Assembly: GCF_003614185.1 (NCBI RefSeq)
Contig: NZ_KZ987724.1
Span: 1,837,360-1,901,359 of the forward strand
Length of the DNA: 64,000 bases
From: Paenibacillus aceti
GTDB taxonomy: Bacteria > Bacillota > Bacilli > Paenibacillales > Paenibacillaceae
Reading direction: 5' to 3'
Made by a program: the position numbers and the translations under genes
Notes under the pieces: model-generated
What the model saw: only the letters and a program-made list of their open reading frames with translations
Database searches by the model: none
What the model was told of the DNA's origin: nothing
Part shown: positions 2,550-61,735 of the stretch, piece by piece
Layout: the number at the start of each line of letters is the position of its first letter
Numbering within the stretch: the first letter of the stretch is position 1

Positions 2550-2618
2550 TTGATCTTACCACCTCTTTACATGTTGTGCGTTAGCGATACTGCCGTTCGG
2601 TGCTGTGTATTACATTAA

Positions 2619-2804
2619 TAGATGCAAATATGCAATTATTCTCGGAAAATAGGACTGTGATTTAAGAATAGTTGCGAATATACAACTATTTCCTCACTTA
2701 GGCCTCGTTCGAGAGAAAAACCATCCGAATAGTTGTATAAAAGCAGCTATATCCTCAAAGGTGGGCATGGAGTCCCCATATAGTTGTATTTAAGCACTTA
2801 TATT
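2619..2804. repeat. Family A quartet element, copy 1
   Basis: Four imperfect dyads of 21-24 bp begin (at the TAGTTG-like left edge) at 2619, 2669, 2730 and 2781, that is 50, 61 and 51 bp apart. Examples are TAGTTGCGAATATACAACTA (2669) and TAGTTGTATAAAAGCAGCTA (2730). The 37-bp central linker ends in a GAAAAACCATCCGA block that recurs in other copies. The 557-bp spacer 2550-3106 otherwise holds only the terminator at 2964-3000. Function is unknown. Confidence 0.85.
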
Positions 2805-13278: not shown

Positions 13279-13394
13279 GATCGTATCCTCCTGTGTATGC
13301 CTGAATCTGTGTATCCTGAATCCAGGATCCCATCCCTTAATAATCTAACCAACTTATGTAAGATCTGTACATGCCAGTGACGGAAACCAGATCA

Positions 13395-13578
13395 TAAATG
13401 CAAATATACAACTATTTTCGGGCTATAAGCCCCCATCCGAGGATATAGCTGCTTTTATACAACTACCCGGACGGATTTTCCGCCAATTTCGAGTTTAACC
13501 AGGAATTAGTTGTACTTACGCATCTATTTTCTTGTTAGATCCCCTGTTACCGGCAAATAAGTGTTTTTCAGCAACTAT
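13395..13578. repeat. Family A quartet element, copy 2 (inverted)
   Basis: Units start at 13395, 13446, 13507 and 13558 (51, 61 and 51 bp). Read on the minus strand, the unit with GTTGTATAAAAGCAGCTATA follows a GAAAATCCGTCCGG block exactly as in copy 1, so this copy is inverted. It fills the spacer 13279-13692 upstream of the SGNH gene; apart from this and the terminator at 13645-13671 nothing else is visible there. Confidence 0.85.
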
Positions 13579-24926: not shown

Positions 24927-25187
24927 TGAAAACTCTCCTTAGTTATTGAAAGTTCGCAGAAGAGCCGCTTCTCACTCCCTGTTCATCCAACCTTCCCGGT
25001 ACTGGAAACCCGCTTTCTCGAACTCTCATCATTTATCCATTTGACTCTATCCCTTTCGAAATACATACATTTTACCCTACCTGCTCAGTACATGGAAGCC
25101 TTCATTTGCAATTGATCTAATTTATATATGAGTTTCTTCGTTTATCCGTATAAATTGAATAGGTTACCGTCCAAGCAAGCTCCAAAG

Positions 25188-25365
25188 CTGCAAATATGCA
25201 GGTTTTTACATGTGAAATCCTCTATTCTTAGGAAATTCCTGCAAATCTGCAGGCTTTCCCACCCTTTTCTAAGAAATCAGGACTGCCTGGAGAAAATAAC
25301 TGCATTATCGCAGGAATATACTCTCCCGGAACGAAATAGTTGCGAAATTCCTGCATTTTTGCAGG
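25188..25365. repeat. Family C quartet element
   Basis: Four palindromes of the form CCTGCAAATCTGCAGG begin (at CTGCA) at 25188, 25239, 25300 and 25351, that is 51, 61 and 51 bp apart, the same architecture as families A and B with different sequence. The plus-strand reading frame across it (25128-25505) is repeat-derived and not a gene. The rest of 24927-25187 and 25366-25618 is featureless. Confidence 0.8.
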
Positions 25366-25618
25366 CATTGTCGAAACCAGGACTGCTCAGCAAACGAACT
25401 ACCGTCTCCTCCTCTAGCTCCCTAACCCTAACTGACCCTATTATCGTGACAATGCCGCTCCTATGTTCCGCTAGACTCGATCAGCCCATGTTTTACAGTA
25501 ACTAGCTCTCTGTTGTTTCTTTAGCAATTAGGTAGAATTGTTAGTTCAATGCAAGTAACTGGCTCGTTGATGTAACGCTGGTGGTATATGGAGGCAATCT
25601 GCGGGTTGTACGGTGACT

Positions 25619-25802
25619 TAAGTGCATATATGCAGCTATATTGGGGCTTCATGACCTCGATATGGGAAATAAGTGTTTTTGTGCAACTATTTAGGGAGAT
25701 TTCCGCTCCCAACGGGCTAAAATGAACATTTAGGTGTATATTTGCAGTTATTCTCTAGCTACAGCTCAATTCCCCGGGAATAGTTGTATTTATGCAGTTA
25801 TC
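25619..25802. repeat. Family A quartet element, copy 3
   Basis: Units start at 25619, 25670, 25731 and 25781 (51, 61 and 50 bp), for example TAAGTGCATATATGCAGCTA (25619) and TAGTTGTATTTATGCAGTTA (25781). It lies in the 1.2-kb gene-free spacer upstream of dynA, 250 bp from the family C element. Confidence 0.85.
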
Positions 25803-35196: not shown

Positions 35197-35328
35197 TAAC
35201 GAAACTAGGCATCGCTATTCGCCTCAAAAGAAGCGATTTCAAAAACTAACGAAACAGGGTATCGCTATCCGGGCTAGTAAGGGGGAAATGGCGGATTTTC
35301 ACCCAAATAACGATATGGAGTTTCGTTA
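35197..35328. repeat. Family B element, three-unit version
   Basis: Units TAACGAAACTAGGCATCGCT (35197, plus), TAACGAAACAGGGTATCGCT (35247, plus) and its inverted form AATAACGATATGGAGTTTCG (35306). Left edges are 50 and 59 bp apart, matching the first three positions of the complete copy at 43675; the fourth unit is not visible. The spacer 34714-35468 also holds AATTCCTG-like fragments (35041-35163) resembling degenerate family C units. Confidence 0.75.
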
Positions 35329-43674: not shown

Positions 43675-43857
43675 TAACGAAACTAGGTAACGCTATTTGC
43701 CTCAAAAAGAGGGATTTAAAAGTCTAATGAAACTGGGTATCGCTATTGGAGTAATTTTCTGCCTTAAACCGTGGTTTTCTTCAAAATAGCGATATGGTGT
43801 TTCGTTAGTTTCCCACTCCCCTCATTTTCGCGGAAATAACGATATGGTGTTTCGTTA
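43675..43857. repeat. Family B quartet element, complete
   Basis: Units start at 43675 (plus, TAACGAAACTAGGTAACGCT), 43725 (plus, TAATGAAACTGGGTATCGCT), 43785 (minus, AATAGCGATATGGTGTTTCG) and 43835 (minus, AATAACGATATGGTGTTTCG), that is 50, 60 and 50 bp apart, so the whole element is a symmetric inverted repeat. It fills the proA-proC spacer (43583-44011). Confidence 0.85.
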
Positions 43858-43949: not shown

Positions 43950-43972
43950 AATAGCGATATCTAGTTCCGTTA
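43950..43972. repeat. Solitary family B unit before proC
   Basis: AATAGCGATATCTAGTTCCG... (23 bp) in minus orientation, 115 bp beyond the last unit of the complete element and ending 39 bases before the proC start codon. It may overlap the proC promoter or 5' leader. Confidence 0.6.
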
Positions 43973-45780: not shown

Positions 45781-45803
45781 AAACGAAACTACGTATCGCT
45801 ATT
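45781..45803. repeat. Solitary family B unit after mtnB
   Basis: AAACGAAACTACGTATCGCT... (23 bp, plus orientation) immediately before the mtnB/dhaK convergent terminator. Confidence 0.55.
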
Positions 45804-60004: not shown

Positions 60005-60129
60005 ATAATAGACGTAAGCAACACAGGCCACCCCTGCATATTTTTCAAACAAATTTATTTTTTCTAGAAAATCAATTCGATTCGCCGTATTCCACAGAGC
60101 CACTTATTCCACAGAGCGCACGAACATAA

Positions 60130-60151
60130 TAGCTGCAGAAATACACTTATT
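60130..60151. repeat. Family A quartet element, copy 4, left part (unit 1)
   Basis: TAGCTGCAGAAATACACTTA at 60130 is the first unit of a family A element. The IS256-family insertion separates it from units 2-4. Confidence 0.8.
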
Positions 60152-60278: not shown

Positions 60279-61469
60279 ATGACTATGATACCCGAAAATT
60301 CAATCAAAAATCTATTTGAAAATCTTGTCACTCAATTTATAAAAGAAAATCTGGAATCCATCATGAAAGCAGAGATTAAGCACTTCATGGCAGATGATAA
60401 GAATGAACATAACAGCCGAAACGGCTACTACAAACGTGCGTTGCACACGAAATACGGACACATTACCGATTTGGAAGTCCCACGGGATCGCAACGGTGTG
60501 TTTCAAACCCAGGTATTTGAGCCCTACCAGCGTCGAGATGGCTGGCTAGAGGAGGCCGTTATTCAAATGTACAAAAGCGGCATGGGTACGCGTGATGTCG
60601 CTCGATTTATTGAAAGTATGTTTGGCAGCCACTACTCACCAACGACGGTTAGCAACATTACGGCCACCGTTCTGGAGGATATCCAGAATTGGCAAAAGCG
60701 TTCGTTAAAGAAACGCTACAGCGTCATCTACCTGGATGGCCTATACGTCAAGCTCAAACGCAGTACGGTAAGCGGAGAGGTCATCTACTTTGCCATGGGA
60801 ATCGATGACGAAGGACATCGTCAGATTCTAGGTTTTTACGTAGGCGGTCAAGAGAGCTCAAATGGCTGGAAGAGTGTCCTTACGGACCTGTACAGCCGTG
60901 GTGTTCACGAAGTGCTGCTGGGCGTGTTTGATGGGCTACCGGGACTGGAGCAAGCCTTTAAAGAAGTCTATCCCCAAGCTGATGTTCAGCACTGTGTGGT
61001 GCATAAGGTGCGTTCCACTTTTCCGAAAGTTCGTGTCCAGCACAAGACCGATTTCATTGAAGATCTCAAAACGATCTACAACGCTCTTGACCATGACTGT
61101 GCTCTTGCTGCCTTTGATACCTTTAAAAGCAAATGGAACAGATTGTACCCCAAGGAAGTGAAGTCGTGGGAAGAACAACTGTCGACGCTTCTGACGTTCT
61201 ATCACTATCCCGCTTTAATCAAGGAGGCGATCTATACATCCAATCCGATTGAACGAATGAACAAAGAGATTCGTAAGCGCCTGAAACCGATGAACAGCTT
61301 AACGAATATGGATGCGGCTGAGAAGATTGTCTACTTGGATGTGATCGCCTACAACGAGCGTTTTGAGAGCCGTGTGATTCGTGGTTTCGGTGATCCACGA
61401 GTACGGGAGGAGCTGAACCAAATGTTTGAAGAACGTTATCCGAGCTCAGACGCACTGAACGAAAACTAA
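60279..61469 (+). CDS. IS256-family transposase
   Basis: 396 residues, normal for the family (Transposase_mut). N-terminal NSRNGYYKRALHTKYGHITDLEVPRDRNGVFQTQVFEPYQRR; DDE residues in SVIYLDGLYVKLKR (Asp), GVFDGLPGLEQAF (Asp) and IYTSNPIERMNKEIRKRLKPM (Glu); QHCVVHKVR and C-terminal region intact. No frameshift or stop, so it is probably active. Ribosome site AAAGGA lies in a stem. Inserted between the sigma gene and the LPMO gene. Confidence 0.95.
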   Translation: MTMIPENSIKNLFENLVTQFIKENLESIMKAEIKHFMADDKNEHNSRNGYYKRALHTKYGHITDLEVPRDRNGVFQTQVFEPYQRRDGWLEEAVIQMYKSGMGTRDVARFIESMFGSHYSPTTVSNITATVLEDIQNWQKRSLKKRYSVIYLDGLYVKLKRSTVSGEVIYFAMGIDDEGHRQILGFYVGGQESSNGWKSVLTDLYSRGVHEVLLGVFDGLPGLEQAFKEVYPQADVQHCVVHKVRSTFPKVRVQHKTDFIEDLKTIYNALDHDCALAAFDTFKSKWNRLYPKEVKSWEEQLSTLLTFYHYPALIKEAIYTSNPIERMNKEIRKRLKPMNSLTNMDAAEKIVYLDVIAYNERFESRVIRGFGDPRVREELNQMFEERYPSSDALNEN

Positions 61470-61487: not shown

Positions 61488-61527
61488 GGGTTGGGTGGGG
61501 GCGGAGGCCTCCGCCCCCACCCAACCC
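61488..61527. terminator. Perfect 40-bp palindrome behind the transposase
   Basis: Twenty-base arms without spacer: the left begins GGGTTGGGTGGGG and ends CGGAGG, the right is its exact complement. It is GC-rich, lies inside the IS 18 bases after the transposase stop, and has no U-tract. It could stop transcription in either direction by hairpin or cruciform. Confidence 0.7.
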
Positions 61528-61601
61528 TCTCGCAACTCCATCTCAGATGGATACTTTACTGGCTTACACAAACTTCTTGACGCTACCCTGAATCAAGAAA
61601 A

Positions 61602-61735
61602 TAACTGCGGATGTACAACTATTTCTTTATTTTAGCCGCCTTCAACAGAAAATCCGACCAAGTAAGTGTATAAAAGCAGCTATTTCCCATATAGTGAGCC
61701 AAATCCGCCAAAATAGTTGCATATATGCACTTATC
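61602..61735. repeat. Family A quartet element, copy 4, right part (units 2-4)
   Basis: Units start at 61602, 61663 and 61714. After subtracting 1422 bp (IS plus one 9-bp repeat) the four starts are 50, 61 and 51 bp apart, identical to copy 1. The linker AGAAAATCCGACCA before unit 3 is the conserved block. Confidence 0.85.

Follow-up and report, generated by a model that had tools for sequence, protein, structure and literature searches.

The closest described counterparts of the elements reported here are the REPINs, hairpin-forming pairs of repetitive extragenic palindromic (REP) sequences, and the REP-associated tyrosine transposases (RAYTs). Excerpts of two studies describe word families tied to genes that have a repeat of the family beside them, and RAYT genes that are never or hardly ever carried on plasmids (PMC8049555, PMC3116915). 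Here, we describe a system of repeats first seen in a 64,000-nucleotide stretch (C1:1837360-1901359, hereafter the window) of the 5.6-Mb genome of Paenibacillus aceti (the home genome). Each element is a quartet of palindromic units, about 185 bp long, and families of quartets share their spacing while differing in word, the sequence of the unit. Quartets often stand beside a gene for a protein that joins a nuclease domain to a winged helix. Quartet and gene very probably form one system. This is probably a genetic system of two parts, one the DNA of the quartet and the other the nuclease-winged-helix protein, with paralogues differing in the word that each is paired with. The findings point to mobile DNA of a two-part kind not described before, and no account of it was found in the literature (titles and abstracts; open-licence papers).

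Quartets in the home genome share a geometry and differ in word

A word-agnostic scan looked for four mutually similar 22-mers of any sequence at 50-51/60-62/50-51 bp (maximum score 132) in 464 kb of DNA, comprising the window and 20 home-genome stretches picked around matches to one family, A. It returned 65 quartets scoring at least 76, one of which is a run of N (L015) and is discounted. At the same score, control spacings of 45/55/45, 33/44/33, 57/61/57 and 65/75/65 gave 2, 2, 4 and 0 matches, with the N run counted in each of the first three, and Markov shuffles, a check proposed in an earlier note on this window, gave none. Two further control spacings, 40/70/40 and 60/51/60, gave 36 and 33 quartets; we infer that these are shifted views of real quartets because their top matches coincide with quartet elements. 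Stretches of the home genome selected for synteny and not for quartets held 11 in 180 kb, from which we would extrapolate to about 340 quartets in the genome.

The quartets singled out in the earlier note are real, are spaced as it said and are more numerous than it recorded; the copy of family A that it saw split by an insertion sequence (IS) is equally real (Table 1). Its three families have become at least five, with the words TAACTGC.. (A), TAACGAAAC.. (B), CCTGCA.. (C), TAACGGACA.. (D) and TAATTGCA.. (E). That these have no common sequence is only partly right, as A and C have a TGCA core in common and many words start with TAAC. The units, then put at about 23 bp, are 22 bp long in families A-D and 23 bp in at least some relatives. 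Genome-wide, 68 loci of family A score at least 74 bits, with three lying in a single repeated segment, family B has at least 101 distinct loci (150 candidates scored), and family D has at least 38 matches of 170 nt or longer (40 of 59 candidates scored). Mean pairwise identity is 0.87 in D, 0.70 in B, 0.63 in A, 0.61 in C and 0.54 in E, the E set having been chosen by a loose rule. An alignment of 29 copies of family A has sharp edges at unit 1 and unit 4, and mean identity between copies is 81% in the units and 47% in the spacers. In family B, the TAACGAAAC half of the units points outward and the element is therefore a two-fold inverted repeat, a symmetry noticed from the start; units 1 and 4 are inverted repeats there and likewise in D.

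Quartets lie between genes, a bias that it had been suggested to look for. All 59 scored quartets that have a neighbour on each side among the genes called by a simple gene caller are intergenic and overlap those genes by 3 bp at most; 5 more quartets, lacking such neighbours, were left out. Many lie tens of bases past a stop codon, and divergent gaps hold fewer than their share (6/59 quartets, against 44 of 194 gaps of at least 100 bp). The notion of autoregulated single operators was rejected: lone A, B and C units look like remnants, and no D or E unit within 3 mismatches of the typed consensus occurs outside a quartet in 644 kb.

Two other places deserve separate mention. A stretch with the end of a peptidase gene, presumably M13-like, and A and E quartets is present in three copies beside a CRISPR-like array partly masked by N (L065 5425-16000); this may reflect a genuine duplication or a fault in the assembly. 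A prophage-like contig carries a second quartet, with the word GCCGATTTTATCGGC and a spacing of 52/59/52 (L213:3382-3566).

A family of nuclease-winged-helix genes stands beside quartets

A genome-wide search with the D word found four near-perfect units 111 bp apart that lie outside D elements. The region (L216:9680-10083) is an array of eight units spaced 50/61/50/61/50/61/50, with a period of 111 bp, that abuts a gene of 218 amino acids; it is apparently a tandem expansion of a quartet beside its gene. This gene has no Pfam match at E 0.001. The home genome has three such genes, the D-array gene and two paralogues, one with E quartets on both sides and the other 416 bp from a C quartet. The encoded proteins, of about 220 amino acids, match DUF559 and winged helix-turn-helix (wHTH) families; the N-terminal part is a Vsr/DUF559/EDxHD-like nuclease domain and the C-terminal part a winged helix. 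Among the fold matches listed, the best for the nuclease domain is the homing endonuclease I-Bth0305I, and at the fold level the domain has a Vsr-like catalytic core with conserved acidic residues and a histidine. The core catalytic positions are nearly invariant. Matches in NCBIfam, PHROGs and PADLOC were weak or absent, and PDB sequence searches gave no relative of the nuclease: one was empty, one gave a weak match, and a profile found mainly winged-helix and ribosomal eS25 chains.

When 29 genomes were searched with a profile built from the three home genes, members of the family turned up in 23, among them the home genome. After two duplicate loci were dropped and some ten fragmentary matches left out, the set comprised 111 genes, 92 of which have a quartet within 1.5 kb at a score of at least 80 (81 at 88 or above). 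By comparison, quartets occur in 5 of 136 three-kilobase control windows at the lower score and 4 at the higher (mostly Paenibacillaceae, not picked for quartets), and in 0 of 333 shuffled flank sets. The quartet is usually just 3' of the gene, at a median distance of 111 bp (73 genes, score at least 86) against 222 bp on the 5' side (28 genes); at that score, 14/111 genes have quartets on both sides. A draw across the class Bacilli gave 28 positive genomes out of 250, with a quartet at 24 of the 28 loci at 80 or above and at 13 at 88 or above, although 3 of these 24 matches resemble artefacts of low-complexity or GC-rich sequence. Two further gene loci have quartets, one of them from the record of a 2.7-Mb P. 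cellulosilyticus plasmid. The association is thus a matter of record at the level of sequence, in keeping with cognate protein-element pairs, one of the explanations offered earlier. At E 1e-10, the gene occurs in none of 50,697 phage records and in 1 of 72,556 plasmid records.

In eight genomes of one genus (L341, L343-L345, L347, L350, L353, L354), each genome shows one conserved copy of the gene, and unit 1 of its quartet overlaps or abuts the gene's own stop codon. Units beside the gene have been kept in situ across 8 species, and the sequences show purifying selection on one conserved gene and its quartet.

Word and protein vary together

Similar proteins stand beside similar words. Among the 62 genes that survived quality cuts, word similarity is correlated with protein identity (Mantel Spearman 0.32, a value reached in 0/999 permutations); on average it climbs from 0.36 between proteins less than 25% identical to 0.53 between those more than 60% identical. 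The relation appears to extend to quartets away from the collected genes. For each of 36 such quartets from nine relatives, 22 genomes were ranked by how well their gene-adjacent words match; the quartet's own genome came first in 20 cases and among the best three in 25, where naive chance would give 1.6 and 4.9. Many of these dispersed loci were fetched with the family A model, and their words are therefore not a random sample.

Spacing classes differ by one helical turn

A strict set was defined by palindrome-centred units, with middle spacings of 38-89 bp scanned and no match in shuffled flanks of half the genes. It holds 30 genes, with outer spacings of 49-52 bp and middle spacings of either 51-52 bp (7 genes) or 60-63 bp (23 genes). 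One of the seven, L226, reads 51/51/52 here and 51/62/52 in a looser set, and is probably misregistered. In the looser set of 89 genes, middle spacings are broader; a class of about 72 bp seen there was dropped, being absent from the strict 30. The two remaining classes are one helical turn apart, which argues for proteins sitting on one face of double-stranded DNA and supports the helical phasing first proposed from the window. The spacing itself, described as conserved, does hold beyond the first copies; the middle interval is not universal, some relatives having about 51/52/51. These latter cases fall mostly together on the protein tree, with L323 apart. Equal-spaced quartets (about 51/52/51) were seen at L304, L310, L314-L316 and L323, several with words unlike TAAC, for example TTTGTACGA.

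Quartets are gained by lineages

Orthologous sites in relatives lack the quartets. The interval between the conserved blocks of proA and proC holds a B quartet in the home genome, where it is about 480 bp long; in Paenibacillus vini (75 bp) and Fontibacillus phaseoli (63 bp) the site is empty, and downstream of leuD neither relative has a quartet. The LeuC proteins of these two species share 92-93% identity with that of the home genome over the best segment, in line with its placement in the Paenibacillaceae. Another relative, G008, shares some 45 kb of colinear DNA with the home genome, of which 30.7 kb align at 86.6% identity, and 0/5 home quartets there have a same-word orthologue in G008. 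One gap common to both holds E and A quartets in the home genome and a different word in G008. On this comparison of sequences, quartets have been gained in a lineage-specific manner, as expected of the spreading non-autonomous element that was another of the early suggestions. The spacers are homologous among copies of a family, and the copies therefore arose by copying.

Family D quartets are embedded in a longer element, about 380-480 bp where both ends were found, that has GGGGCTGTC...GACAGCCCC inverted repeats (L183-L212). In some D copies, the flanks lengthen the palindrome outward (e.g. acaa/ttgt, cgaa/ttcg), as if the element had been inserted in terminator stems, which are targets of IS1182-family elements. 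No blastn match to the family A element was found in phage or plasmid records. In an exact-pattern scan, B unit pairs occur in two viral contigs, both with a B quartet and adjoining phage tail-type genes; the C pattern occurs in one viral contig, without a quartet, and D units in none.

A mechanism and its competitors

The most economical mechanism, which we judge to have an even chance of being correct, is one in which the protein drives the quartet's copying, as RAYTs drive that of REPINs. The protein would bind the palindromes, cut the DNA and copy the element. A dimer could bind each palindrome through its winged helices. At intervals of 5/6/5 or 5/5/5 helical turns, the four dimers would share one side of the double helix and build a two-fold symmetric complex within which the nuclease domains nick or cut. 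The break might then set off the copying, by which the 185-bp element reaches further intergenic sites, a gene-linked quartet being the likely source. The nuclease gene itself would stay on the chromosome and be inherited mostly vertically, as RAYT genes are with REPINs. Somewhat short of even is the chance that these are a new class of mobile DNA, defined by geometry and copied by nuclease-winged-helix transposases with no DDE, HUH, serine or tyrosine core, in which word and protein have co-diversified across the Bacilli.

Several observations weigh against a mobile gene-quartet pair. No quartet was detected at 19/111 genes, only 30/111 satisfy the strict palindrome criteria, some matches look like GC-rich artefacts (e.g. 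L305, L279), and the control windows come from genomes other than those of most genes. Families A and B have no cognate gene in the home genome; apparent ones exist in relatives, namely an A-type gene in G008 (L252) and B-word genes in G008 and G003 (L283, L285), the latter with B quartets on both sides. The expectation that families with a gene present would be young failed, gene-linked families not being consistently younger by pairwise identity. Word matching fails in G013 and G020 (none in the top three) and in G006 (1/4), and in the home genome only 17/68 quartets rank in the top three for the genome's own gene words, as would follow if A and B had no gene in that genome. Only 30/102 proteins have a lysine at the K position of the E-x-K motif. 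Finally, no insertion or excision event was seen, and the flanks of 29 A and 13 B copies have no target-site duplication and no excess of direct repeats.

Some of these points would suit quartets that serve the host as regulatory or nucleoid sites, kept for a local function such as chromosome folding or the shaping of transcript ends, with the nuclease-like protein now an architectural factor or autorepressor. The sharp phasing, the units held in place beside the gene in 8 species, the variable lysine, and the placement often just past gene ends and seldom in divergent gaps are all compatible with this. We nevertheless consider it unlikely, given that none of the five dispersed home quartets has a same-word orthologue in G008, that the core catalytic positions have barely changed, and that homologous spacers speak for copies made by copying.

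A homing or gene-drive element is improbable. Here the nuclease would cut allelic empty sites into which the gene and its flanking quartets are copied, and dispersed quartets would be by-products or decoys. The match in fold to I-Bth0305I, the best listed for that domain, and the genes flanked on both sides fit this model, but the common word lies within the element and not in the empty site, quartets far outnumber genes in the home genome, and the gene is nearly absent from phage and plasmid records.

Still less credible are miniature inverted-repeat transposable elements (MITEs) of ordinary DDE transposons, the units being ends or subterminal sites of an IS elsewhere and the nuclease gene a bystander or a target-site effect. 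The longer D element with its inverted repeats, and the inverted units 1 and 4 of B and D, are what such elements would look like. Against them stand the missing target-site duplications of A and B, a similar geometry across many words, a constant middle spacing that is odd for internal deletion derivatives, and a nuclease association far above control; gene-flanking half-elements are also not evident among the A matches listed. A family of structured RNAs or transcription terminators, the remaining early suggestion, has very little to commend it beyond palindromic units able to form hairpins and a location often downstream of genes, since the RNAalifold consensus is -2.84 kcal/mol for A, almost without energy, and -9.67 for B, the covariation term amounts to -0.62 in A and is unfavourable in B (+0.64), the window has no Rfam match at gathering thresholds, and the spacing classes are one turn of DNA apart. 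To return to the copying of quartets by their nuclease, if true it would account for many intergenic repeats in the Paenibacillaceae and make direct predictions on binding, spacing and mobility.

Features of the window

Quartets, remnants and the interrupting transposase gene are collected in Table 1. The transposase gene, which we take to be IS256-like, lies outside the quartet system; a perfect 40-bp palindrome stands just to its right (61488-61527). The Aldedh-family gene beside the B quartet is presumably proA-like.

Table 1. Quartets, quartet remnants and an interrupting gene in the window
Feature	Position	Strand	Details
Family C quartet, 22-bp palindromes	25184..25368	.	units 25184, 25235, 25296, 25347 (51/61/51)
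Family A quartet	25618..25801	-	units 25618, 25669, 25730, 25780 (51/61/50)
Family A quartet	2618..2801	+	50/61/51
Family A quartet	13394..13578	-	51/61/51
Unit 1 of IS-split family A quartet	60129..60150	+	
Units 2-4 of IS-split family A quartet	61601..61734	+	units 61601, 61662, 61713
Transposase gene (PF00872, Mutator family) splitting A quartet	60279..61469	+	
Family B quartet	43675..43857	+	between Aldedh-family gene and P5CR gene (proC-like)
Family B remnant, three units	35197..35328	+	units 35197, 35247, 35307; downstream of leuD-like gene
Single B-type unit, remnant	43951..43972	-	position counted from sequence
Single B-type unit, remnant	45782..45803	+	

Comparison with known systems

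The quartets can be set beside several described systems. I-Bth0305I, an EDxHD, Vsr-like enzyme, differs in that the quartet protein has a winged-helix DNA-binding domain and its word recurs in many dispersed elements; no intron or intein was noticed beside the three home genes, where no systematic search was made. Like MITEs, quartets are small, non-coding and dispersed, with an inverted-repeat architecture, and D sits inside an element with terminal inverted repeats; unlike MITEs, A and B have no target-site duplication, the internal geometry is fixed over unrelated words, and the associated gene is not a DDE transposase. Compensatory base changes of the kind seen in structured non-coding RNAs were not found in families A and B. 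In TnsA of Tn7, too, a restriction-like nuclease domain is joined to a winged helix at the C terminus, and the ends of Tn7 carry several 22-bp sites; quartet units differ in being palindromic. Around the three home genes, the stretches read showed no partner gene resembling TnsB, the neighbours of other loci not having been surveyed, and TnsA is not among the fold matches listed, although the two proteins may be kin.

REPINs and RAYTs are the nearest likeness. Both systems have many short, palindromic, intergenic and non-autonomous repeats per genome, repeats beside a cognate gene, and several word-gene pairs in one genome. A RAYT as the enzyme of the home genome was considered and set aside, as PF01797 found only 14 equally scoring IS200-like genes with a 157-amino-acid frame (L021-L034). 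In place of an HUH tyrosine transposase, the quartet system has a nuclease of Vsr/DUF559-like type that carries a winged helix, and its element has four phased units at about 50/61/50 and not two that form one hairpin. The quartet system therefore works like REPIN/RAYT but departs from it in the two features that define it, enzyme type and unit number. If the copying model is true, this would be a second, independent solution to the REPIN/RAYT problem, with hundreds of tiny repeats maintained by a chromosomal enzyme and built on a restriction- or homing-type nuclease and a phased four-site scaffold, and it would offer a natural set of nuclease-word pairs in which to study how DNA specificity evolves.
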